Below, piece after piece: positions 258-18,866 of a stretch of DNA of 23,683 nucleotides. Source of the stretch: a virus. How positions within the stretch are numbered: the first letter of the stretch is position 1; each line of letters begins with the position of its first letter. The notes beneath the pieces were generated by a model, which ran no database searches, was not told the DNA's origin, and saw only the letters and a list, made by a program, of their open reading frames with translations. A program made the translations under genes and the position numbers. The stretch spans positions 1 to 23,683 of the IMG/VR virus record IMGVR_UViG_3300032242_002807. One strand, 5' to 3'.

Positions 258-491
258 ATGTCCAGACATAAAATCGAATCAGTGATTACAAAACAAATAA
301 CTGAGATATACAGCGCCACTGACATAGTGACGGCAAAAGAACTACTTAGAAACCTATTAAACGCCTCAAATATCAAGGACGTAGACAAATCTAAAATGCT
401 ATCTGAATTGGATAATCTCAAGACTTTGAAACAAGTTCAATTCTACGCGACCAATTGTATGTTTAAATTTGAGGGTTTAGGAATTGATTAA
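258..491 (+). CDS. Small hypothetical phage protein (77 aa)
   Basis: Unrecognised helical protein. Residues 20-56 are rich in Leu, Ala and charged residues and look like a pair of amphipathic helices; a single cysteine lies near residue 67. The ATG sits directly after AAATATTT, so its leader is less A-rich than its neighbours', and it may depend on the gene before it for expression. Its stop codon overlaps the first bases of a promoter box (488-499) that serves the next gene. No function can be assigned. Confidence 0.75.
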   Translation: MSRHKIESVITKQITEIYSATDIVTAKELLRNLLNASNIKDVDKSKMLSELDNLKTLKQVQFYATNCMFKFEGLGID

Positions 492-523
492 CCTCAACTC
501 CAACATTATATTTAGTATATAAA
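488..523 (+). promoter_or_regulatory. Early/middle-type phage promoter P1
   Basis: TTAACCTCAACT (488-499), then exactly 18 bases, then TATAAA (518-523) inside TTTAGTATATAAA. The same 12-mer with the same 18-base gap recurs at 2842-2877, and a G-variant at 1855-1890 and 1971-2006. Expected transcription start is near 530, leaving a short A-rich leader before the ATG at 541. It does not match the Bacteroidota housekeeping consensus (TTG / TAnnTTTG), so a phage activator or altered sigma may be involved; that is inference. Confidence 0.75.
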
Positions 524-540
524 AATAAAAAGTAAAAATT

Positions 541-792
541 ATGGGATTCTATTACGACAAACACTCCGACCAAGACAGAATGTTGAACAAGTTCGACAAA
601 GTAGCTAAACGCAATAAACAAGAGATTGATGAGAATCATCCCGATTTTGAACCTACTAGTTTACCACTAGCCGAACAATTTAAGTATTGGGCTAAAAAAG
701 ATGAGATGGAACGTATCGCTCGTGACGCTAAAAAAGCAGCTGAGGAAACTAAAGTAAATGAACCGTTTATTAGCCACTACAAACCCAAATAG
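541..792 (+). CDS. Small charged hypothetical protein (83 aa)
   Basis: Unrecognised. It is very rich in Lys, Asp and Glu with a long predicted helix over residues 40-72 (alternating charged and Ala residues), and no cysteine or membrane segment. It reads like a soluble, partly disordered phage peptide. It is preceded by promoter P1 and a leader ending AAAAAGTAAAAATT, which supports this ATG. It may be separately transcribed from the two genes before it. A weaker promoter candidate (770-806) overlaps its 3' end. Confidence 0.75.
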   Translation: MGFYYDKHSDQDRMLNKFDKVAKRNKQEIDENHPDFEPTSLPLAEQFKYWAKKDEMERIARDAKKAAEETKVNEPFISHYKPK

Positions 793-806
793 TATATTAG
801 TATATA
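770..806 (+). promoter_or_regulatory. Weak member of the P1 promoter family
   Basis: TTAGCCACTACA (8 of 12 match to TTRACCKCRACT), a 19-base gap, then TATATA (801-806) within ATTAGTATATACT. The -10 surroundings resemble the TTTAGTATATAA of P1 and P3, but the upstream box and spacing are off consensus. AGTATATACT (799-808) is a perfect palindrome and could instead be an operator. If active, it would give a leader of about 70 bases before the gene at 883. Confidence 0.4.
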
Positions 807-812
807 CTGATG

Positions 813-850
813 AAGGGGTGGCAAGTAAAGTCGAAAGGCTGACCTAGAAA
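813..850 (+). ncRNA. Possible structured 5' leader element
   Basis: In the 90-base gap before the gene at 883, AGTC (829-832) pairs with GGCT (837-840) around a GAAA tetraloop, and GGGT (816-819) pairs with ACCT (842-845) outside it, with an asymmetric internal loop. The sequence is markedly more G-rich than its surroundings, which are otherwise A/T. I do not recognise a known riboswitch or ribozyme class. It could be a regulatory leader or simply a chance hairpin. Confidence 0.3.
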
Positions 851-882
851 AACCAATTAAATTAAATAAAAATAAATAAAAT

Positions 883-1089
883 ATGACTATAGTAGATACA
901 ACCGTTTATAAAGCCTTCGTTTTCATAGTTGAAGATGGAGACATAGAATATGAAGTAAGATGTTCTGAAAATGATGCTTCTGATGACTGGGAAATATTTG
1001 ATATAACAAATGGAGGGTCAATTTCATTAGAAAGTGAATTAGGAAGTACTTTACTTGATTTATGTAGTGAACAAAAATTAATGAGTTAA
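883..1089 (+). CDS. Small acidic hypothetical protein (68 aa)
   Basis: Unrecognised acidic protein, predicted as a small beta-rich fold: residues 8-46 alternate hydrophobic and polar residues (KAFVFIVEDG, then EYEVRC) followed by a short helix. Two cysteines (residues 27 and 61) are present with no obvious metal motif. It follows a strong A-rich leader. Highly acidic small phage proteins can be DNA mimics, but nothing specific supports that here. Confidence 0.75.
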   Translation: MTIVDTTVYKAFVFIVEDGDIEYEVRCSENDASDDWEIFDITNGGSISLESELGSTLLDLCSEQKLMS

Positions 1090-1092
1090 ATT

Positions 1093-1317
1093 ATGACAGT
1101 TAAAGAACTAATAGAACAACTACAACAATTAGATCCTGAATTACATGTGTTCGTGAGTGGATATGAAGGTGGATATAATTATGCTGGTCCAATTATTGAG
1201 GATAAAGAATTTGCTTTGAATTTTCATGATGAATGGTATTATGGTAATCATGAAGTTGCTGATTATTCAGGGGTTGAGGAAGGTAATTATACAATAGTTA
1301 AAGGAATAATATTATAA
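1093..1317 (+). CDS. Small conserved phage protein, MTVKELIEQL-type (74 aa)
   Basis: The N-terminus (MTVKELIEQLQQLDPELHVF) matches a widespread pattern in small phage and bacterial proteins that begin with a T/S-V-K-E-L helix, an LDP turn and a beta strand carrying a glycine-rich EGGY segment (residues 24-27). Function of that group is not established. It starts three bases after the previous stop, so the two genes are probably co-transcribed and translationally linked. The very acidic, Tyr-rich C-terminal half is consistent with a compact alpha/beta fold. Confidence 0.8.
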   Translation: MTVKELIEQLQQLDPELHVFVSGYEGGYNYAGPIIEDKEFALNFHDEWYYGNHEVADYSGVEEGNYTIVKGIIL

Positions 1318-1331
1318 AAATAAAATAAGTT

Positions 1332-1613
1332 ATGAGAGTTATTTGTATTGAAGATTCATTATGGAAAGATGGATCAGCATATGATGGAACTATTGCCACC
1401 CATAAAGGAGCTATTTATCATGTTACAGGATCAGCTGATGCATCAGTATTAAGAGCCCAAGGATTTCCAGCCGCACCAGGTGTTTGGTATGGATTTTTAG
1501 AAGTACCTGGTGTGCATCATGGTGTTAGGTTTCTTGAGATACCTGAGGATGAGAATGAAGATGTGTCTGAAGAGTATGTTAGTGTAGCAGAAAGAAATAT
1601 TCTTAATTATTAA
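1332..1613 (+). CDS. Small conserved phage protein (93 aa)
   Basis: The arrangement of an N-terminal beta strand, a KGAIYHVTG segment (residues 25-33), a WYGFLEVPG segment (about 52-60) and a final FLEIPED strand (67-73) recalls a common family of small phage proteins with an SH3-like all-beta look. The function of that family is unknown. The acidic tail after residue 73 is likely flexible. A-rich leader AAAAATAAAATAAGTT supports the ATG. I am confident that it is a gene but not in any role. Confidence 0.75.
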   Translation: MRVICIEDSLWKDGSAYDGTIATHKGAIYHVTGSADASVLRAQGFPAAPGVWYGFLEVPGVHHGVRFLEIPEDENEDVSEEYVSVAERNILNY

Positions 1614-1623
1614 AAAATAAGTT

Positions 1624-1821
1624 ATGATAAACACAACAATTGAACGATTAATTGAAATTGAAAAAGAACGTGAACAAACCATGATGGATAAACAATTCCA
1701 ACAATGGATGAAAAAGCTTAACGTGTCTCGTTTATATACTGATAAGGCAGGTGCTCTTAGAGCAAATGAGCTTATGAATCAATATGATTTGAGTAAATAT
1801 AAGTATGTAGTAAATCTGTAA
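1624..1821 (+). CDS. Small helical hypothetical protein (65 aa)
   Basis: Unrecognised, basic and helical: residues 5-30 form a long charged amphipathic helix (IERLIEIEKEREQ), followed by a second helical half rich in Leu, Ala and Asn. The leader TTAAAAAATAAGTT is nearly the same as that of the gene before, and the gap is 10 bases. It is the last gene of the first small-gene block; a terminator-like hairpin follows 17 bases after its stop. Confidence 0.75.
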   Translation: MINTTIERLIEIEKEREQTMMDKQFQQWMKKLNVSRLYTDKAGALRANELMNQYDLSKYKYVVNL

Positions 1822-1838
1822 TATACAATATTTTAGTT

Positions 1839-1870
1839 AGGGAGTCCGGTTAGATTGACCGCGACTCCCT
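1839..1870 (+). terminator. Terminator-like hairpin with embedded promoter box
   Basis: AGGGAGTC (1839-1846) pairs perfectly with GACTCCCT (1863-1870); CGGT (1847-1850) pairs with ACCG (1858-1861) after a one-base bulge, leaving a 7-base loop. The stem is G+C-rich in an A/T-rich region and lies right after the last gene of the first block, so it probably ends that transcript. The downstream T-run is interrupted (TGCTATCTTTATT). The 3' arm overlaps the TTGACCGCGACT box of promoter P2. Confidence 0.65.
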
Positions 1871-1890
1871 TGCTATCTTTATTATATAAT
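1855..1890 (+). promoter_or_regulatory. Early/middle-type phage promoter P2
   Basis: TTGACCGCGACT (1855-1866), 18 bases, TATAAT (1885-1890). The same 13-mer ATTGACCGCGACT with the same gap recurs 116 bases downstream at P3. It overlaps the preceding terminator hairpin. It would drive the possible 19-residue peptide at 1907 and, by read-through, the ATPase module. Confidence 0.7.
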
Positions 1891-1906
1891 AAGAAAATAA
1901 AGAAAG

Positions 1907-1966
1907 ATGACGATTTTAATATTATGGTTTTTGTTAATGTACGGTTTGTTAAGTAAAAAGAAATAA
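1907..1966 (+). CDS. Possible membrane micropeptide (19 aa)
   Basis: ATG after the leader AAGAAAATAAAGAAAG opens a frame of 19 codons: MTILILWFLLMYGLLSKKK. It is a single hydrophobic stretch ending in a Lys cluster, the classic shape of a one-pass membrane peptide with its C-terminus in the cytoplasm. It sits between promoters P2 and P3, with P2's TATAAT ending 16 bases before the ATG, so the position of promoter and start fits a real gene. Toxin, holin-like or regulatory roles are all conceivable, and it may also be noise because it is so short. Confidence 0.45.
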   Translation: MTILILWFLLMYGLLSKKK

Positions 1967-1970
1967 TTAA

Positions 1971-2006
1971 TTGACCGCGACTAATTCGTTAAATTTAGTA
2001 TATAAT
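1971..2006 (+). promoter_or_regulatory. Early/middle-type phage promoter P3
   Basis: TTGACCGCGACT (1971-1982), 18 bases, TATAAT (2001-2006) within TTTAGTATATAATAATA. The start point should fall near 2013, giving a short A-rich leader before the RadA-like gene at 2024. Identity of the 12-mer and of the spacing with P2, and the shared TTTAGTATATAA with P1, make this the best-supported promoter in the window. Confidence 0.8.
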
Positions 2007-2023
2007 AATAAAAATTAAAAAAT

Positions 2024-2839
2024 ATGAACACAGGTAAAAAACGTGGTAGACCAAGTAAAAAACAAGTAGCTAACTTTACAGTTGTTCCAACTGAATTAAA
2101 ATTAGATATTGTACAATTGAGTAATTTGGATATTGATCCACGTATGATGAATACTATGCAAAGTGGTTTACCGATAGATGATTTAATTTCGCATGAAGGA
2201 GGTGTTCCATGTGCTACAAATATTATGTGTATAGGTGACCCAGGAGTAGGTAAAACAACTGTATTATTAGATTTATTAGCTTCTATGAATAATAAAGGAC
2301 ATAAATGTTTATTCATATCAGGTGAAATGGGTAAAAAACAAATGTTTAAATATACACAACGTTTCCCACAATTTAGAAATGTTAAAACATTGTTCATGGC
2401 TGATTATTTAGAACATAACACAAAAGAGGTTATTGAACAAGTAATGACTATGGGTTGGGATTGTGTGTTAATAGATTCAATTGCTGAGATTATAGAAGGT
2501 GTAAGAGATGATAATAAATGGGATCGTAAACAAGCTGAAAGCTGGTTAGTAGATTTATGTGTTAAGAATAATAAAGGTGATAATAATGAAAATGCTTATA
2601 CTTCATATTTGTTAATTCAACAAGTTACTAAATCAGGTGAGTTTGTAGGTTCAAATAAATTGAAACACATGACCGACGCAATGATGGAAATGAGAAGAAG
2701 AAGTGACCGTGACGGAGGAGGTACATATATGAACTTTATTAAGAATAGAAATGGTAATGTCGACCAACAATTTAGTTACGACTTACAAAACGATTACATT
2801 TACTACGGTTCAATTGTAGAAGCAGAAGACGAAGAATAA
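2024..2839 (+). CDS. RadA/Sms-like RecA-fold ATPase
   Basis: This is a RecA-superfamily ATPase closest in layout to the RadA/Sms core. Visible motifs are Walker A GDPGVGKT (residues 71-78), LFISGE (96-101, matching the RadA YVSGEE strand), Walker B VLIDS (148-152), a QQVTKSGEFVG segment (199-209) that parallels the RadA H-x-TK-G-AGP stretch, and KNRNG (240-244) in the place of RadA's KNRFG motif. The RadA zinc finger and C-terminal Lon-like domain are absent, so the protein is only 271 residues. The N-terminus has a basic AT-hook-like KKRGRPSKK (5-13), suggesting DNA binding. Related phage proteins act in recombination or replication as branch-migration or helicase motors. Driven by P3; first gene of the ATPase module. 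A DnaB-type helicase is less likely given the short length. Confidence 0.8.
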   Translation: MNTGKKRGRPSKKQVANFTVVPTELKLDIVQLSNLDIDPRMMNTMQSGLPIDDLISHEGGVPCATNIMCIGDPGVGKTTVLLDLLASMNNKGHKCLFISGEMGKKQMFKYTQRFPQFRNVKTLFMADYLEHNTKEVIEQVMTMGWDCVLIDSIAEIIEGVRDDNKWDRKQAESWLVDLCVKNNKGDNNENAYTSYLLIQQVTKSGEFVGSNKLKHMTDAMMEMRRRSDRDGGGTYMNFIKNRNGNVDQQFSYDLQNDYIYYGSIVEAEDEE

Positions 2840-2841
2840 TT

Positions 2842-2877
2842 TTAACCTCAACTAACTAATTAAATTAATTATATAAA
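2842..2877 (+). promoter_or_regulatory. Early/middle-type phage promoter P4
   Basis: TTAACCTCAACT (2842-2853), 18 bases, TATAAA (2872-2877). The 12-mer is identical to that of P1. The ATG at 2887 lies only 9 bases after the -10 element, so the transcript would be nearly leaderless for the small membrane protein. Confidence 0.7.
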
Positions 2878-3069: not shown

Positions 3070-4200
3070 ATGTTGAATAATATTACTAAAATAAGATTTT
3101 CCCAATACTATAAAAATGGAAAAACAAATAATGGATTCAGACAAGTAGGGTATTGGAATGATAATAATGCCTTTATTAATGAAAAAGATAGTGTTTTATT
3201 ACAAATGGTGCTTAAAATAATTACTAAGTCAGAACCAATTCAATTGAATACTAATGATATTGTTTACGCTACTAAAGCAAGTGATATACCTCGTTTTAAA
3301 TTAAAGGAGTTTATTAAGGAAAATAAAATAAGAAAAACATCTAGAGCTAAAATGGCTAATATATTCATATTGAATAAAGGTGTTTTTTTAGATTTAATTA
3401 AGAAATTAGAGTATGGTGAACATTATTTTGTGAATGAAAAATACGCTATAAACAATCATAAACTTTGGGGTGATGGAGGTGTTTGGGAGGAAGCTAAAAA
3501 AGGATTTAACTCCTATACAGATAAAAACAATTATTTTCTTATAGAAAAAGATAAGAGTAATTGGAAGGATATGTTTAAGGATAGTAGTTTAGAACAATTA
3601 TTTAAAAATAATACTCACACAACTAAAGGTACTTTACTTAGTGTTTATAGAGAACAAAAATTAGTTGACTTACTTAGTATTATTATTGAACATAAAAGTG
3701 ATATCATAAGTGGAAAGAAAAAAATTGTGTTTGATGAGGATTTATTTGTTGAGTTAAATAAAGAAGGAATTGAACTCGATGATGAGTATTTACAAACACT
3801 TCGTGATATGTTGTTTAGTAAAGATGATTCTAATGTTAAGTTAGGTTTTGAAATGATGTCTAATTTAGTACTTAATCAAAGTACAATATTATCAATTTCA
3901 TTCCTATTAAATGAATTAATTTACCAAACTAGATTCAGACCAAGTTATTATACTAACAATAATACCAATTTAAAAGCGTTATTAAAACTACTTAAAACAA
4001 AAGGTATATATTGGGAACGTGATTGGAAAACGTTTGGTACTGGGTTGAGAAAGAACTTTAAAACAGGGAAAGAAGGTGCTATTGTTAAGAAGTTCTTATT
4101 AGATAATATTAATCGTGAATTTAAATTGAGTAACTCAGCTGCTGAGGAATTAGTTAATATAGTTTTTTCAACCGAAGCCCCAGAATTAAATTTAGTATAA
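3070..4200 (+). CDS. Hypothetical protein of the MoxR/VWA module (376 aa)
   Basis: I do not recognise this protein. It is basic, with a beta-rich or mixed first 150 residues, an acidic middle and a helical second half. Residues 244-266 (from LRDMLFSKDD to the following MMSNL) align without gaps with residues 15-37 of both small proteins at 5452 and 5798, suggesting a shared helical, HEAT-like repeat. No catalytic motif or membrane segment is visible. It lies between the RadA-like ATPase and the zincin-VWA protein, 10 bases from the latter, so it is probably a partner or substrate adaptor of the MoxR/VWA pair. Confidence 0.8.
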   Translation: MLNNITKIRFSQYYKNGKTNNGFRQVGYWNDNNAFINEKDSVLLQMVLKIITKSEPIQLNTNDIVYATKASDIPRFKLKEFIKENKIRKTSRAKMANIFILNKGVFLDLIKKLEYGEHYFVNEKYAINNHKLWGDGGVWEEAKKGFNSYTDKNNYFLIEKDKSNWKDMFKDSSLEQLFKNNTHTTKGTLLSVYREQKLVDLLSIIIEHKSDIISGKKKIVFDEDLFVELNKEGIELDDEYLQTLRDMLFSKDDSNVKLGFEMMSNLVLNQSTILSISFLLNELIYQTRFRPSYYTNNNTNLKALLKLLKTKGIYWERDWKTFGTGLRKNFKTGKEGAIVKKFLLDNINREFKLSNSAAEELVNIVFSTEAPELNLV

Positions 4201-4201
4201 A
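4168..4201 (+). promoter_or_regulatory. Weak member of the P1 promoter family inside a gene end
   Basis: TCAACCGAAGCC (8 of 12 match), a 16-base gap, TATAAA (4196-4201) in TTTAGTATAAAATAAAT. The TTTAGTATA context matches P1 and P3. It overlaps the last codons of the preceding gene and would start a transcript just before the zincin-VWA gene at 4211. Off-consensus spacing keeps confidence low. Confidence 0.35.
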
Positions 4202-4210
4202 ATAAATAAT

Positions 4211-5452
4211 ATGATAGATAATATACACGGCGATATAGCCAAACACTCTAAGACATTAATGTTTCGTGAACCGTTTTATGGATTGTTCCTAATCGGTCTG
4301 AATAAAGAATTAAGTGATACTGTCTCAACTGCTTGTGTTGCTAAAGATGGTATTAATACTAAGTTAGTTATTAGTCCTAAATTTTGGGAGACAATAGGTG
4401 ATGGTTGTAAAGTAGCTGTTTTGAAACATGAATTGTTACATATTGCATTTAAACACTTACAAATGTTTGATGAGTATGATGATAAAACATTATTGAACGT
4501 AGCTGCTGATTTAGAAATTAATCAATACATTCAAGACGAGTATAAAGATGATACTTGGGATGGTTTAGAAATTAATAAAGCACCTTGGGATGAATTAAAA
4601 TTACCTGAAAAAGCAGGTACTAGAAAGTATTATGAACTGATTAAAAAAGAAGCAGAACAAAATCCAGATGGTGATGTTGCTAAGTATTTAGATGCTGCTA
4701 AAGCTGCTAATGGTGATGGTGAACCTAGAGAAATAACTTTAGGAGACGGTACTAAAGTAACTGTTAAAGCGTCTCATGAGTTTTGGAAGCAATATGAGAA
4801 CATGGATGAAGCAGAAAAGAAATTGATGGAGAAACAAATTGAACATCAATTAAAAGATACTGCTAACCAAGTACAAAAACAAAGAGGACATATACCAGGT
4901 GAATTAAAAGAATTAATTGATAGTTTATATGTAAGTGAAGAAGCTGTTATTGATTGGAGAGCTTATTTAAGACGTTTTAATGGTATGGCTAGTAAAGTAT
5001 TTACTAAGAAAACAAGACGTAAACCAAATAAACGTTTTTATGGTAACCCAGCTCTTAAAATCAAACAAAGAAAAAATACATTAGTTGCTATTGATACTTC
5101 AGGTTCAGTTTCTAAGGATGATTTAAAGGAATTTTTAAGTGAAATTCATCACATATATAAAACAGGTACTGAAGTTACTGTTGTTGAATGTGATGCTCAA
5201 ATTGGAAGAGTTTATGAGTATAAAGGTGAAGCAAAAGAAGCTTTAGAAGTAACAGGTAGAGGAGGTACAAGTTATGAACCCGTGTTAGAATATCTATTTG
5301 AACATAAAGATAAATTTCAAAACTTAATCTACTTAACTGATGGTGAATGTTCAGTTAACACTACACCATGTAAACCTACTTTATGGGTTCACTGTTCAGG
5401 AAGAAGTATTAATGAAGATTTACCAGGTGCTAAAGTACAAATTAAATCATAA
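4211..5452 (+). CDS. Zincin-like metallopeptidase/VWA domain protein
   Basis: Two domains are readable. Residues 1-110 carry KHELLHIAFKH with HELLH at 73-77, a zinc-peptidase HExxH motif, followed by NVAADLEIN (96-104) where Asp100 could supply the third ligand; this resembles the DUF2201 putative metallopeptidase layout. Residues 288-400 form a VWA domain with a MIDAS: DTSGS (295-299), Thr353 in GRGGTSYEP and Asp377 in LTDGE. The middle (about 190-280) is helical and basic. Such proteins are regularly paired with MoxR AAA+ ATPases, and one is encoded at 6072. Together they probably form a chaperone-like complex that loads metal or remodels a protein target. Whether the peptidase site is active is unknown. 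The stop overlaps the next ATG (TAATG). Confidence 0.85.
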   Translation: MIDNIHGDIAKHSKTLMFREPFYGLFLIGLNKELSDTVSTACVAKDGINTKLVISPKFWETIGDGCKVAVLKHELLHIAFKHLQMFDEYDDKTLLNVAADLEINQYIQDEYKDDTWDGLEINKAPWDELKLPEKAGTRKYYELIKKEAEQNPDGDVAKYLDAAKAANGDGEPREITLGDGTKVTVKASHEFWKQYENMDEAEKKLMEKQIEHQLKDTANQVQKQRGHIPGELKELIDSLYVSEEAVIDWRAYLRRFNGMASKVFTKKTRRKPNKRFYGNPALKIKQRKNTLVAIDTSGSVSKDDLKEFLSEIHHIYKTGTEVTVVECDAQIGRVYEYKGEAKEALEVTGRGGTSYEPVLEYLFEHKDKFQNLIYLTDGECSVNTTPCKPTLWVHCSGRSINEDLPGAKVQIKS

Positions 5453-5820: not shown

Positions 5821-6040
5821 TAAAGAGTTATTTAATGAATTGAAAATAATGATAAGTTCATCAAATGAACACGACGTAGTCATGGCCATTTCTATTATAG
5901 AAACGGCTGATGAATGGAATAAACAGAACCAAATAAAGAAAGAACGATTGTATGAGACTCTAAGAGAGAATGACCACATCAAAAACAGACATGAATTACA
6001 AATGAAGGTGTGGTTAGCGAATAATGACCTTAATCAATAA
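5798..6040 (+). CDS. Small module protein with the same HEAT-like motif (80 aa)
   Basis: Helical, charged protein. Residues 15-37 (LKIMISSSNEHDVVMAISII and on) align with no gap to residues 15-37 of the preceding protein; conserved positions are L15, K16, M18, S21, N23, D26, A30 and A37. The two genes look like a diverged tandem duplication of an N-terminal repeat. It starts inside the previous gene (23-base overlap), so it is translated by coupling. A promoter-like element before 6072 overlaps its 3' end. Confidence 0.75.
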   Translation: MEEKLIINKELFNELKIMISSSNEHDVVMAISIIETADEWNKQNQIKKERLYETLRENDHIKNRHELQMKVWLANNDLNQ

Positions 6041-6058
6041 CATAAATTTAATTATAAA
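6024..6058 (+). promoter_or_regulatory. Weak member of the P1 promoter family
   Basis: ATGACCTTAATC (8 of 12 match), a 17-base gap, TATAAA (6053-6058) in TAATTATAAATAAAAAG. The -10 side closely resembles P4, and the leader before the MoxR gene is like that of P1 (AAAAAGTAAAAA). The 11-mer ATGACCTTAAT recurs at 7433-7443 without a -10 element. Confidence 0.45.
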
Positions 6059-6071
6059 TAAAAAGTAAAAA

Positions 6072-7262
6072 ATGGCAAAGACAAGTAAAAAACAAAACGC
6101 AACTGTATCATTAAATGTCCACGAATTAAAGGACTTTTTGAAACACATTATTGATAACAACCGTTATCTACAAGAAAACAATAAACCAATGGTATCAACC
6201 GAAGTTATAGGTGATAGTGGTATTGGTAAAACATCTTCTATCGTCCAATTAGCAGATGAATTAGGTTTGAATTTCGTTAAGTTAAACTTAGCTCAAATTG
6301 AGGAAATAGGTGACTTAGTAGGTTTTCCAATTCGTCAATTTGAAATGAAGGACAAAAAGACAACTGAATGGATAGATGAAAATTCAGTTGAAGATTATCG
6401 TAAGAAAGGTTATGAAGCCACAGGTTTAAATCGTATGAGTTACTGTCCACCTGAATGGATTAGTGGTAAAACAAATGGTGGTATTCTATTATTGGATGAC
6501 TGGAATAGAGCTGATATGAGATTCATTCAAGCTGTAATGGAGTTAATTGACCGTCAACAATATATTAGTTGGAAGTTACCTAAAGATTGGCATATCATAT
6601 TAACCGCTAATCCTGATAATGGAGATTATTTAGTTAACAGTATCGACAACGCTCAAAAAACGAGATTTATTAGTGTTAACTTAAAATTTGATCTTAAATG
6701 TTGGGGTAAGTGGGCTGAACAAGCTAAATTAGATGGTAGATGTATTAACTTTATGTTGATGCATCCAGAATTAGTTACTAAAGAAGTTAATAGTAGAAGT
6801 GTTAGTATGTTCTTTAATAGTATTAGTTCACTTAAATCGTTTGAGGAGTCATTACCATTAATTCAAATGATTGGAGAAGGTAGTGTTGGTAGTGAGTTTA
6901 GTACTTTATTTACTATGTTCATTAATAATAAATTGGATAAGATGATTTCACCTGAAAACATCATGAGTCAAGATGAAACATATGTTATGAACACACTTAA
7001 GAGTTTAGTTGGTAAAGATAAGAATTATAGAGCGGATATTGCGGCTACATTAGGTACAAGGGTTGCTAACTATTTAGAGTTCTATGCTAAGGATAATGCA
7101 GTTGAGAAACCATTAACTGATCGTATTAGTAAAATTGTAACAGAGAAAATATTTGCAACTGACGTTTGTTACAATATGGTTAAATCTATTTACAATAGTA
7201 ATCCAAATAAGTTTAAATTAATGATGCTAAATAAAGAATTAGTTAAGTATATAACTAAATAA
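6072..7262 (+). CDS. MoxR-type AAA+ ATPase
   Basis: A 396-residue AAA+ ATPase of the MoxR/RavA kind. Walker A is GDSGIGKT (47-54), Walker B is GILLLDD (137-143) followed by NRA (145-147), sensor 1 is TANPDN (178-183), and an AQKTRF segment around residue 198 offers the arginine finger. The N-terminal 30 residues and the helical C-terminal third (about 240-396) are less conserved. MoxR ATPases work with VWA-domain partners as ATP-driven chaperones; the VWA partner is encoded four genes... two small genes upstream at 4211. In a phage the client could be a virion protein, the host RNA polymerase or a nuclease; none is identifiable. A hairpin (7285-7316) follows the stop, so this is probably the last gene of the module. 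Confidence 0.9.
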   Translation: MAKTSKKQNATVSLNVHELKDFLKHIIDNNRYLQENNKPMVSTEVIGDSGIGKTSSIVQLADELGLNFVKLNLAQIEEIGDLVGFPIRQFEMKDKKTTEWIDENSVEDYRKKGYEATGLNRMSYCPPEWISGKTNGGILLLDDWNRADMRFIQAVMELIDRQQYISWKLPKDWHIILTANPDNGDYLVNSIDNAQKTRFISVNLKFDLKCWGKWAEQAKLDGRCINFMLMHPELVTKEVNSRSVSMFFNSISSLKSFEESLPLIQMIGEGSVGSEFSTLFTMFINNKLDKMISPENIMSQDETYVMNTLKSLVGKDKNYRADIAATLGTRVANYLEFYAKDNAVEKPLTDRISKIVTEKIFATDVCYNMVKSIYNSNPNKFKLMMLNKELVKYITK

Positions 7263-9060: not shown

Positions 9061-9816
9061 ATGGCAGAAGAGCAAGAAGTATTATTAACGAAGAAAGGGA
9101 CTGTCCGTAAACGCAAACCTAAAAAGGCTAATGTTTACTTCACTCAGGAAACTGAAGATGCTATTATTGAGTATCTAAAATGTAAAGATCAAGATATACG
9201 TAATAAAATATTTAATGAAAAAATTAACTACTCGTTTCATAAGCTGGCTGAAAATATCATTCATACTTTTAAGTTTTACTATACGGAAGTGGATACTATC
9301 CCTGAGTTACAACATGAAGTGGTGGCCTTTTTATTAGAAAAATTACACTTATATAATCAAAATAAAGGTAAAGCATTTAGTTACTTTGGTACTATTGCTA
9401 AACGTTATCTTATTCTTTATAATAATGCTAATTATAAAAAGCTAAAAGATAAGGCACCTGTTGAAGCTGTTGATGAAGATAAGTCAATATTAATTGATAT
9501 TGTTAATAGTAATAATGAACCACAAGTAGACCAATTACCATCTTATTTACAACAGTTTACTAAGTATGTAGATGCCAATTTATTCATTTTCTTTCCAAAA
9601 CAAAACGACGCTCGCATAGCTGATGCTATATTAGAGTTATTCCGTAAAAATGAAAATTTAGATATTTTTAACAAAAAAGCTTTATATATTTACGTAAAGG
9701 AAATGACCGAGGCATCAACACCTCAGATAACTAAAATTATTAAGCGTTTGAAAATAGTATATGTTAAGAAATATAACGAATATTATGAACACGGACGTAT
9801 TACTATGTCGATTTAA
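9061..9816 (+). CDS. gp55-like late transcription sigma factor
   Basis: A minimal sigma-70 region 2-type protein like T4 gp55. After a basic N-terminus (residues 11-23), the segment VYFTQETEDAIIEYL (25-39), the helix around KLAENIIHTFKF (61-72), an ELQHEVVAF helix (82-90) and KGKAFSYFGTIAKRYLI (102-118) match the region 2 helices that bind the beta-prime clamp and the -10 DNA. A separate region 4 is not evident, though the C-terminal basic helix could contact a clamp or the core. The position immediately before the virion genes is apt: a CATATTTATA-type element lies one base after its stop. It probably redirects host RNA polymerase to late promoters. Confidence 0.85.
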   Translation: MAEEQEVLLTKKGTVRKRKPKKANVYFTQETEDAIIEYLKCKDQDIRNKIFNEKINYSFHKLAENIIHTFKFYYTEVDTIPELQHEVVAFLLEKLHLYNQNKGKAFSYFGTIAKRYLILYNNANYKKLKDKAPVEAVDEDKSILIDIVNSNNEPQVDQLPSYLQQFTKYVDANLFIFFPKQNDARIADAILELFRKNENLDIFNKKALYIYVKEMTEASTPQITKIIKRLKIVYVKKYNEYYEHGRITMSI

Positions 9817-9840
9817 CTCTTCATATCTCTCATATTTATA
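9817..9840 (+). promoter_or_regulatory. Candidate late promoter L1
   Basis: The stretch begins with CTCTTCATATCTCT and ends in CATATTTATA (9831-9840), starting on the base after the sigma-factor stop. It shares 19 of 24 positions, ungapped, with 18843-18866. The ATG of the first virion gene is 12 bases after the motif. TATTTATA is the reverse complement of the T4 late -10 TATAAATA, so either the motif has diverged or its orientation is swapped. Confidence 0.6.
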
Positions 9841-11219: not shown

Positions 11220-13129
11220 TGGCTAACGATAAAATATATCCTATAGATATGAATTCCAAAGATATCCTCCTTCAAAATGAAGGTGGAGGTGGAATGATTA
11301 TGAATGATCAATTTATTGGCATTGTAGGCAATATGCTTCCTGACCAAAAGAAACTTCTTGATAGTCAAGAAAATATTAATGGTACTAATATACAAACAGA
11401 TAAATTTTCTAGTAATATTATAATTACTAATGCTACAAGTAATCCTATTAGTATAAATGATTTAGCAAGTAAAAATTTAGATACATTAGATCAAAGTATA
11501 AATACTAATCAAGTAGCAGCTCCTCTATCAAATGATCATTGTGGTGGTGAAGGTTTATTAAATTATGAATATCAAGAAATAGCTAAAAATTCATATAACA
11601 TCATAGAATTATATACAGCACCAGACTCTACTGATTTTTACCAACCAATTAATGACAATTATATAAAAAACGGAGTTATTTCTCCTAATTGTTTAACAAA
11701 ATATGTTAAAACTGAAGAACAATTTAAAACTTTATTATTTAGTCCTGAATCAATAGATGTACTTAAAACTTCATTAATTTTAGATGGTTCAAATTTTCCT
11801 ATTATATATAAAACTTTACAAACTGACTTACCATCTGATGTAAAATATAATTATGAGAATGTTTTTGTACATGATAAAACTAATAAACTTAATCATAAAT
11901 CAATATATCTGAATTATGATTTTAAAAATAATATCACAGGTCAAACTGAAAATAGAAGCATACTTGATATACAAACACTCCCATCAGGATTAAGATCATT
12001 AGTGTTTGGAACAGTTCAAACTAGTTGGGAAAACACTCATTATGTAGAAGGAATACTAGTAGCAATAGGTCCTGACTATTTAAATTCTTTACCAGGTATA
12101 GGTATAAAAAAAGATGAGTATGGTAGTTTACATTTTCGTGACAAAAACCAAAACTACCTCTTCTATAAATTTCGTTATATATATTTTGAAATATTAAGTA
12201 TTTATAATTCTAATAAAACAAAATTTTTAACTACATTAGCTAATGTATATAAAGAAGCTGTTAAATCACACTTTTTTTCAATTAGTGAGACTACTACTAA
12301 TAAAATCAGAATACAACAACAAATATTAGGTATTGATACTTCTTTAGCAATAGCATTAAAATACATTGATTGTCCTAATGAGTATGAAATAAACAATGAT
12401 TTATCCACAACAAAATCATCTGAAGCTCCAGCTCCTCCTTCAATCACTCCTACAGTTACGCCCCCAGCATCATCAACATTAATTCCTCCCCAAACTAAAG
12501 CTGAGGAAGAAGAAGGTATTTATGAGGCTGAATTTTTACCCGCAACTGAAAATACTACTCAAGTACTTACAGGAGGAAATGAGAACGATGAGGAAGATAC
12601 TAAAAAAATACTTACATATATAGCGCAGGGTAGAATAACAATATCAAAGATTAAAACTGATGGTAGTAATACTTCTAAAAAATATAATTTACAAACAGCT
12701 GACTTAACTGAGATTTCAAAATATGTTAGTTTCGCAGATACAGTTCAAAAAGATTGGAATAATGGAATCATTAATCCTAATTTAATAAAAGATATTGCTT
12801 CCGCTTGCAAAACAGCAGGTGTAAATTGTGTTATCACAACAGCTAAAACAGGACATAGTACAACAACAACATCAGGAAATATTAGTAGACATACAAATGG
12901 TACAGGAGTTGATATTGCTTTTGTGAATGGAATTTCTTCTATTAATGCTACTAATATTAATAATATTGACATTAACTTTAAAACAGCTGGAGATAAACTA
13001 AAAAATGCATTAGTACAAATGGGATATAAATGGAACACGGAAAAGGGAAATGATAAAGCAGTATTATGGTTAACTACAACAGGCGGTAATCATTATAATC
13101 ATCTACATGTTAGTAATAGAATACAATAA
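11219..13129 (+). CDS. Tail protein with C-terminal M15 peptidase domain
   Basis: A 636-residue protein. The first 390 residues are beta-rich and structural, with no family I can name. Residues about 395-450 are a Pro/Thr/Ser/Glu-rich linker. Residues 480-636 are a zinc D-Ala-D-Ala carboxypeptidase/L-Ala-D-Glu endopeptidase domain of the M15 type: SRHTNGTGVDIAF gives H557 and D564, and GGNHYNHLHVS gives H628 or H630 as third ligand. The enzyme would cut peptide stems of peptidoglycan, and attachment to a tail protein suggests local wall digestion during DNA entry, comparable in role to the lysozyme domain of T4 gp5. The TAATG start couples it to the preceding hydrolase-bearing gene. Confidence 0.85.
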   Translation: MANDKIYPIDMNSKDILLQNEGGGGMIMNDQFIGIVGNMLPDQKKLLDSQENINGTNIQTDKFSSNIIITNATSNPISINDLASKNLDTLDQSINTNQVAAPLSNDHCGGEGLLNYEYQEIAKNSYNIIELYTAPDSTDFYQPINDNYIKNGVISPNCLTKYVKTEEQFKTLLFSPESIDVLKTSLILDGSNFPIIYKTLQTDLPSDVKYNYENVFVHDKTNKLNHKSIYLNYDFKNNITGQTENRSILDIQTLPSGLRSLVFGTVQTSWENTHYVEGILVAIGPDYLNSLPGIGIKKDEYGSLHFRDKNQNYLFYKFRYIYFEILSIYNSNKTKFLTTLANVYKEAVKSHFFSISETTTNKIRIQQQILGIDTSLAIALKYIDCPNEYEINNDLSTTKSSEAPAPPSITPTVTPPASSTLIPPQTKAEEEEGIYEAEFLPATENTTQVLTGGNENDEEDTKKILTYIAQGRITISKIKTDGSNTSKKYNLQTADLTEISKYVSFADTVQKDWNNGIINPNLIKDIASACKTAGVNCVITTAKTGHSTTTTSGNISRHTNGTGVDIAFVNGISSINATNINNIDINFKTAGDKLKNALVQMGYKWNTEKGNDKAVLWLTTTGGNHYNHLHVSNRIQ

Positions 13130-14562: not shown

Positions 14563-14567
14563 TAAAA

Positions 14568-14575
14568 TATTTATA
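14568..14575 (+). promoter_or_regulatory. TATTTATA element before the 14579 gene
   Basis: TATTTATA lies only three bases before the ATG. A -10 element there would place the start site inside the gene, so it is more likely part of the A-rich leader than a working promoter. It is listed because it matches the late promoter candidates' core. Confidence 0.2.
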
Positions 14576-18842: not shown

Positions 18843-18866
18843 CTCTCCAAATACCCCATATTTATA
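18843..18866 (+). promoter_or_regulatory. Candidate late promoter L2
   Basis: Begins CTCTCCAAATACCC and ends in CATATTTATA (18857-18866), 19 of 24 positions identical to L1, and like L1 it begins right after a stop codon. The ATG of the DNRLRE-like gene is 20 bases after the motif. The C-rich upstream part is conspicuous in so AT-rich a genome. Confidence 0.6.

Follow-up and report, generated by a model that had tools for sequence, protein, structure and literature searches.

A candidate middle-type promoter family with an altered Bacteroidota-like core and a clade-specific box in uncultured phages

Two described systems lie closest to the promoter-like family considered here. The Flavobacterium primary-sigma element is TAnnTTTG at -12 to -5 (PMC9723704); T-12, A-11, T-8, T-7, T-6 and G-5 are nearly invariant, G is virtually absent from -10 and -9, and in F. 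johnsoniae many starts lie 4 or 5 nt past this -7 element (PMC6847099). At the middle promoters of phage T4, a MotA box with the consensus wwwTGCTTtA replaces the -35 element, lies 12±1 bp from the -10 element and tolerates deviations (PMC2988021). For T4-like phages of Bacteroidota, the parts of the open-access literature that we searched contained no worked-out promoter classes. Our analysis concerns the 23,683-base IMG/VR virus record IMGVR_UViG_3300032242_002807 (positions 1-23,683; hereafter the window), in which a 12-bp box (TTGACCGCRACT or variant forms) precedes an AT-rich core upstream of left-half genes. We propose that such sites probably constitute an activator-dependent, middle-type phage promoter class, which would combine MotA-like logic with an altered Bacteroidota core.

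Architecture of the boxed sites

A preliminary description of the window had singled out four sites at which a 12-base upstream box is followed, after an invariant 18-base gap, by TATAAA or TATAAT. All four lie where they were placed, on the + strand, with 0 mismatches and a gap to TATAAW of exactly 18, and the promoter-like family before left-half genes is real. The exact 12-mer occurs in the window at these four sites only (both strands checked); a single copy with 1 mismatch, at 12536, lacks TATAAW (best 3 mismatches), and a reversed-pattern control gave 0 matches. A scan with the window's ATPase gene (2024-2839) identified 57 related loci, and in all of the 24 examined the box is followed by TATAAW at 17-19 bases (≤2 mismatches), in every match with the orientation of the ATPase gene, and an open reading frame (ORF) nearly always follows at a short distance. 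The motif recurs before tens of genes in related phage contigs.

A logo of 77 sites (of 90 before near-duplicate removal), picked by box and TATAAW with the intervening sequence playing no part in the selection, revealed a third element, TA[TA][AC]TTTA, which starts at +19 from the box start, 7 nt past the box, in both the 17-nt (n=41) and the 18-nt (n=36) gap class. Its last base is A in 95% and 100% of sites in these two classes, respectively. Because the TA element keeps its position in both, the box is tied to that element, and it is TATAAW that shifts by one base. The 18-base gap, invariant at the four window sites, is therefore not a property of the relatives (17 or 18), in which the 7 nt between box and TAWMTTTA are fixed instead.

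These observations bear on the layout proposed in the preliminary description, in which the 12-mer is an extended -35 element located 18 bases before a TATAAW -10. Consistent with that layout are the exact 18-base gap at the four window sites and the presence of TATAAW at +2 or +3 past the core at 77 of the 118 box sites used for core and TTG statistics (118 of 135 kept after near-duplicate removal). Yet the gap to TATAAW varies while the distance from box to TAWMTTTA does not, and an ATG 4-5 nt past the core occupies the TATAAW position in 9 of the 118 sites, where TATAAW therefore cannot be the -10. In distant phages TATAAW is mostly absent, being found ≤12 nt from the core at 5 of 34 TTG-N20 sites in the isolate immuto and at 4 of 50 in G025 and G026. 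We have rejected TATAAW as a -10 element on these grounds, and the layout built on it is very improbable; TATAAW is predicted to be start-site DNA. The related claim that the sites do not fit the Bacteroidota housekeeping promoter also fell, since TAWMTTTA, overlooked earlier, has five of the six fixed -7 bases and is preceded by TTG at a distance of exactly 20 nt in 36 of the 118 box sites, about one third, against 2.3 expected, with neighbouring offsets near background. No G is found at -10 or -9 in 118 of 118 box sites, a count that partly reflects the weight matrix described below, which favours such sites.

Start codons provide a ruler for the predicted start. Over the phage loci, TTG-N20-TAn[AC]TTTA has 429 distinct sites, 283 of them with an ORF start within 40 nt, compared with 14 of 92 when the spacing is N23 and 5 of 71 when it is N17. 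Among the 283, the ATG lies exactly 4 nt from the core at 20 sites, at 5 nt at 5, and over positions 6-13 at 19, and a further, broad mode of 76 sites lies 22-24 nt past the core. A peak at 4 nt is expected of leaderless transcripts if transcription begins 4-5 nt past the core, and would fit such starts here.

Placement before genes was assessed with a weight matrix over the box and TA element, applied to 634 kb (eleven contigs and the window, with G003 and G005 reduced by about 0.4 and 1.6 kb) and compared with order-1 Markov resamplings, five over the 634 kb and 20 for the window. Matches numbered 165 at scores ≥10, 156 at ≥12 and 140 at ≥14, and the control means were 3.8, 1.6 and 1.0. Genes were called with a simple ORF picker, and ORFs cover 90% of the DNA; the core nevertheless lies outside ORFs in 116 of the 165 matches, as does the TA element in 111 of the 156 at ≥12, so that the motif does not occur just as often inside genes. 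Among 412 genes with an upstream gap ≥20 (ten contigs and the window, G013 left out), 112 have a box match. An intergenic repeat was considered and rejected, because the spaced elements are the only conserved parts and the sequence between them is variable. That such a repeat, or a chance alignment, with no promoter function accounts for the sites is scarcely credible given the rigid spacing, the position on the sense strand ahead of genes, the return of sites at orthologous genes and controls near zero.

The exact 36-base pattern of the preliminary description also arises by coincidence. Across the viral collection, 29 stretches contain a total of 30 matches to it. The TA element accompanies 13 of these, all with TTGACCGCRACT, and is lacking from 17, of which 10 carry TTAACCTCAACT. 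The TTAACCTCAACT form is also that of window sites 488 and 2842, both of which have the TA element (TAAATTAA at 2842). In other phages (L009, L012, L019, L020, L023 and L031) the exact pattern, without the TA element, lies in one stretch that they have in common, and there it is probably a coding coincidence.

Host and phage cores, and the reach of the box

For a host comparison we used 29 of 80 loci reached via GroEL similarity, those whose titles are Flavobacteriaceae or close; none of them is a known host of these phages. Counts in upstream regions, obtained for hosts and phages by a single pipeline, were as follows.

Flavobacteriaceae-type loci (29 loci, 324 regions): TAnnTTTG 116, 32.9 expected; TAnnTTTA 72, 63.9 expected
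Box-clade phages (277 regions): TAnnTTTG 20, 18.1 expected; TAnnTTTA 143, 57.2 expected
G025 and G026 (140 regions): TAnnTTTG 4, 12.2 expected; TAnnTTTA 52, 32.9 expected
Immuto (76 regions): TAnnTTTG 2, 4.2 expected; TAnnTTTA 35, 17.7 expected

The spacing between TTG and core is spread over 18-23 in the host loci, with its top at 21, whereas the phages keep it at 20 (37 sites in the box clade, 22 in G025 and G026, 24 in immuto); a second box-clade peak at 16 is the box itself. In 11 further distant groups together, TTG-N20-TAnnTTTA occurs 137 times and TTG-N20-TAnnTTTG once. Immuto, which infects Flavobacterium sp. LMO8, has promoters composed of an A-tract, AGTTGC and TTG-N20-TAT[AC]TTTA, and one weak box match genome-wide. 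Since the phage core ends in A where the host base is a nearly invariant G, the phage-modified polymerase raised in the preliminary description may be involved. It is possible, and we suggest it tentatively, that a phage factor, either sigma-like or sigma-modifying, makes A instead of G the base recognized at -5 and thereby sets phage promoters apart from those of the host, with clade-specific activators adding boxes such as TTGACCGCRACT. If the shift is true, it would represent a sigma-appropriation system in a phylum for which our literature search, as far as its listings extend, found none. The replacement of G by A where the host sequence hardly varies also poses a sharp question, namely how phages capture a sigma factor as unusual as that of Bacteroidota. 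Immuto on Flavobacterium sp. LMO8 makes the core amenable to experiment in an isolate.

The box has a narrower distribution than the core. Box plus core (≤3 mismatches) was found in 8 of 8 near-clade contigs, with 7-19 matches each, and was absent from 22 of 24 distant records; the reversed pattern gave 5 matches over all 32 records. Between -25 and -12 relative to the start of the core, distant groups have other sequences, for example GTTTGGC and TAGGCTT. The 12-bp box TTGACCGCRACT is essentially confined to this phage clade. A core common to all clades suggests one polymerase form, and a box that can be exchanged suggests a DNA-binding partner particular to the clade. The sequence statistics establish the box, the core, their spacing, their placement before genes, the clade restriction and the start-codon ruler.

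According to the mechanism that we favor, an altered -7 element, TA[TA][AC]TTTA, would lie at -12 to -5, with TTG at -33 in about one third of sites, and the box TTGACCGCRACT would lie a short way upstream of this core at about -31 to -20. Transcription would start 4-5 nt past the core, in or beside TATAAW, yielding either no leader or a short one. A phage-encoded activator would most likely bind the box and contact the polymerase, as MotA does at T4 middle promoters; an activator in a MotA-like role, already put forward in the preliminary description, is the best available reading of the sequence. From these patterns we infer promoter activity, middle timing and the action of an activator as opposed to a repressor.

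A repressor deserves consideration in its own right, as the box lies between -33 and -7, a common location of operators. In this alternative the box would be the operator of a phage repressor that shuts genes off, and host polymerase would read the core without an activator. Plain TTG-N20 promoters without a box coexist in the same contigs, however: in near-clade contigs, 68 of 119 T[TA]G-N20 cores have no strong box, and 36 of these 68 lie before an ORF, several with the ATG at 4 nt. Retention of TTG at N20 by 36 of the 118 box sites, against 24 of 35 TAnnTTTA in immuto, hints that an activator offsets a weakened -33 element, although the 22 of 52 in G025 and G026 leave this comparison mixed. 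We regard the repressor as quite improbable.

Several points weigh against our preferred explanation, activation through the box of an altered Bacteroidota-type core. The position of the box would suit a repressor too, and the TTG comparison, as just noted, is mixed. The contigs that were counted also supplied the training sites of the matrix, and kinship among these contigs means that sites are not fully independent. Four weak box matches occur in two distant records (3 in G021 and 1 in immuto), and in 7 of the 283 ruler sites the first ATG lies less than 4 nt past the core, a misfit to the predicted start. One distant group, c69, is unenriched overall for the A form (TAnnTTTA 9, 8.5 expected; TAnnTTTG 10, 5.3 expected), although its five TTG-N20 sites all end in A. 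Finally, gene clusters shared by four or more near-clade contigs number 74; 16 of them have no match in the distant set, and the four of these 16 that were scanned (c2, c12, c26 and c33, with c12 and c26 also aligned) revealed no convincing DNA-binding family. Neither MotA nor AsiA was seen among the few clade-specific proteins scanned, in contigs that are incomplete and with no whole-genome search made. A 64-aa Arc-like protein, c32 (L182:7833-8027; PHROG Arc-like, E 0.0013), is present in near and distant phages and may be a general transcription regulator.

Window sites, a sigma-like protein and a second promoter-like class

In the window, matrix scores reach ≥17.4 at five sites (488, 1855, 1971, 2842 and 6024), followed by 4168 (10.5) and 839 (8.1), and no other site scores ≥6 on either strand; 20 random windows had on average 1.0 match at ≥6, 0.4 at ≥8 and 0.15 at ≥10. 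The predicted promoters and their genes, all on the + strand, are listed below.

484-541, +: predicted promoter 1; TTG 484-486, box TTAACCTCAACT 488-499, -7-like TATATTTA 507-514, TATAAA 518-523, predicted start about 519-520, ATG 541 (83-aa gene); score 26.2
839-883, +: weak candidate; box CTGACCTAGAAA 839-850, TAAATTAA 858-865, ATG 883 (68-aa gene); score 8.1
1851-1907, +: predicted promoter 2; TAG 1851-1853, box TTGACCGCGACT 1855-1866, TATCTTTA 1874-1881, TATAAT 1885-1890, ATG 1907; score 32.8
1907-1966, +: 19-aa hydrophobic ORF behind promoter 2
1971-2024, +: predicted promoter 3; box TTGACCGCGACT 1971-1982, TAAATTTA 1990-1997, TATAAT 2001-2006, ATG 2024; score 33.2
2024-2839, +: KaiC/RecA-like ATPase, gene of promoter 3
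2842-2887, +: predicted promoter 4; box TTAACCTCAACT 2842-2853, TAAATTAA 2861-2868 (TTAA core variant), TATAAA 2872-2877; score 19.7
ATG 2887, +: 59-aa membrane-like protein, gene of promoter 4
4168-4211, +: weak predicted promoter; box TCAACCGAAGCC 4168-4179, TAAATTTA 4187-4194, ATG 4211; score 10.5
4211-5452, +: VWA/metallopeptidase-like protein (DUF2201)
6024-6072, +: predicted promoter 5; box ATGACCTTAATC 6024-6035, TAAATTTA 6043-6050, ATG 6072; score 17.4
6072-7262, +: AAA/MoxR-like ATPase (AAA_5), gene of promoter 5

Of three weaker relatives proposed earlier, those at 4168 and 6024 are borne out by orthologous genes that also have a site, gene 4211 in G005 (14.0) and G007 (16.7) and gene 6072 in eight other contigs (G003, G004, G005, G007, G008, G009, G012 and G024). 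At 770-806 the matrix finds no box; the weak site at 839-865, which is not significant by itself, stands in for it before gene 883. Small ORFs similar to the 19-aa hydrophobic one lie behind a box in G003 and G009. The N-terminus of the ATPase at 2024-2839 includes the AT-hook-like stretch KKRGRPSKK, and KRGRP is also found in small proteins of relatives (cluster c23). The products of 4211-5452 and 6072-7262 are a pair that resembles cellular MoxR-VWA systems.

Four further features concern a possible phage sigma factor and a second class of promoter-like sequence.

9061-9816, +: sigma-factor-like protein, 251 aa, recognized from profile matches of homologues and a structure model
9832-9840, +: ATATTTATA before gene 9853; no box, no TTG
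14567-14575: ATATTTATA before gene 14579; no box, no TTG
18858-18866, +: ATATTTATA before gene 18887; no box, no TTG

Profile matches among 26 homologues of the 9061-9816 protein are to Pfam Sigma70_r2 in 11 (best E 4.7e-4), to a PHROG sigma family in 9 and to PHROG late sigma in 3 (best E 0.017); DUF2624 is also matched by 11. The window copy itself matches none of Sigma70_r2, PHROG sigma and PHROG late sigma, and a profile search with the family against PDB sequences gave no match. The structure model is of moderate quality (pLDDT 71, pTM 0.43). Foldseek detected no PDB match at E ≤0.001; it gave one viral model at 3.2e-5, and models named as phage sigma factors rank lower in its list. By VIA-align the best match is E. 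coli sigmaE (1or7_A; Z 9.8, rmsd 13.7, 160 aligned), the second T4 gp55 (7d7c_F; Z 9.6, rmsd 5.0, 125 aligned), and sigmaE region 2 also appears (2map; Z 9.1, rmsd 2.8, 92 aligned); Z values of about 9-10 are modest for a helical protein, and the weight lies in a list that consists almost wholly of sigma chains. As judged from the model, the protein has a sigma-factor fold, with modest support from sequence. The family has at least 587 relatives in viral contigs, in box and non-box clades. The immuto counterpart, immuto26A_153, is annotated as hypothetical.

The second class may represent the late promoters, for which it is a natural candidate. In the box clade, 76 of 110 copies of ATATTTATA precede ORFs, compared with 4 of 109 for its reverse complement, and in the window 3 of the 5 sense copies do so. 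T4 late promoters have the sequence TATAAATA. As a general rule for these phages, TATAAATA in the leader as a T4-like late promoter was rejected; it is rare in immuto and in G025 and G026, and an ORF follows TATAAATAT in 4 of 109 cases.

It is conceivable that a phage sigma factor, perhaps the 9061-9816 protein, takes the place of the host sigma, with the box serving as its -35 and TAnnTTTA as its -10 element and no separate activator involved. The terminal A of the phage core in place of the host G would be accounted for in this way, and a protein with a sigma fold is available in box and non-box clades alike. That same breadth is a difficulty, however, as the box is clade-specific yet the sigma-like protein is common to several clades, and the box-less ATATTTATA class would suit a late sigma better. 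We consider this alternative unlikely, while taking it seriously.

Comparison with known systems

Under the activator-dependent explanation, an uncultured phage group would place one switch before many genes, composed of a Bacteroidota-like core with one nearly fixed letter changed and a box of its own. The result is a ready promoter code, comprising a plain TTG-N20 core, a boxed core and the box-less ATATTTATA, with predicted starts and several leaderless cases.

The predicted core resembles the Bacteroidota primary-sigma promoter in having TA at -12/-11, TTT at -8 to -6 and a predicted start 4-5 nt on (PMC6847099, PMC9723704, PMC7366714). TTG near -33 is found in the group as a whole, whereas most single box sites lack it. 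The phage core differs in having A for the nearly invariant host G at -5, with five of six fixed bases kept, in a TTG spacing fixed at 20 and in its extra 12-bp box.

As at T4 MotA middle promoters, a box peculiar to the phage lies a short way upstream of a -10-like element of the host type, and the box consensus allows deviations. In contrast to the T4 arrangement, the core is of the Bacteroidota type and not sigma70; the box TTGACCGCRACT is unrelated to wwwTGCTTtA and lies 7 nt from the core as opposed to 12±1; and the centre of the box would be near -26 and not -30. TTG at -33 is retained by 36 of the 118 sites, so that any replacement of this element by the box would be partial. The family resembles T4 middle promoters in logic and is not a member of that family. 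The ATATTTATA class shares with T4 late promoters a short AT-rich core without TTG, and differs in having ATATTTATA instead of TATAAATA. The 9061-9816 protein, with its predicted sigma fold, recalls T4 gp55, since 7d7c_F is among its best structural matches, alongside many sigma factors.

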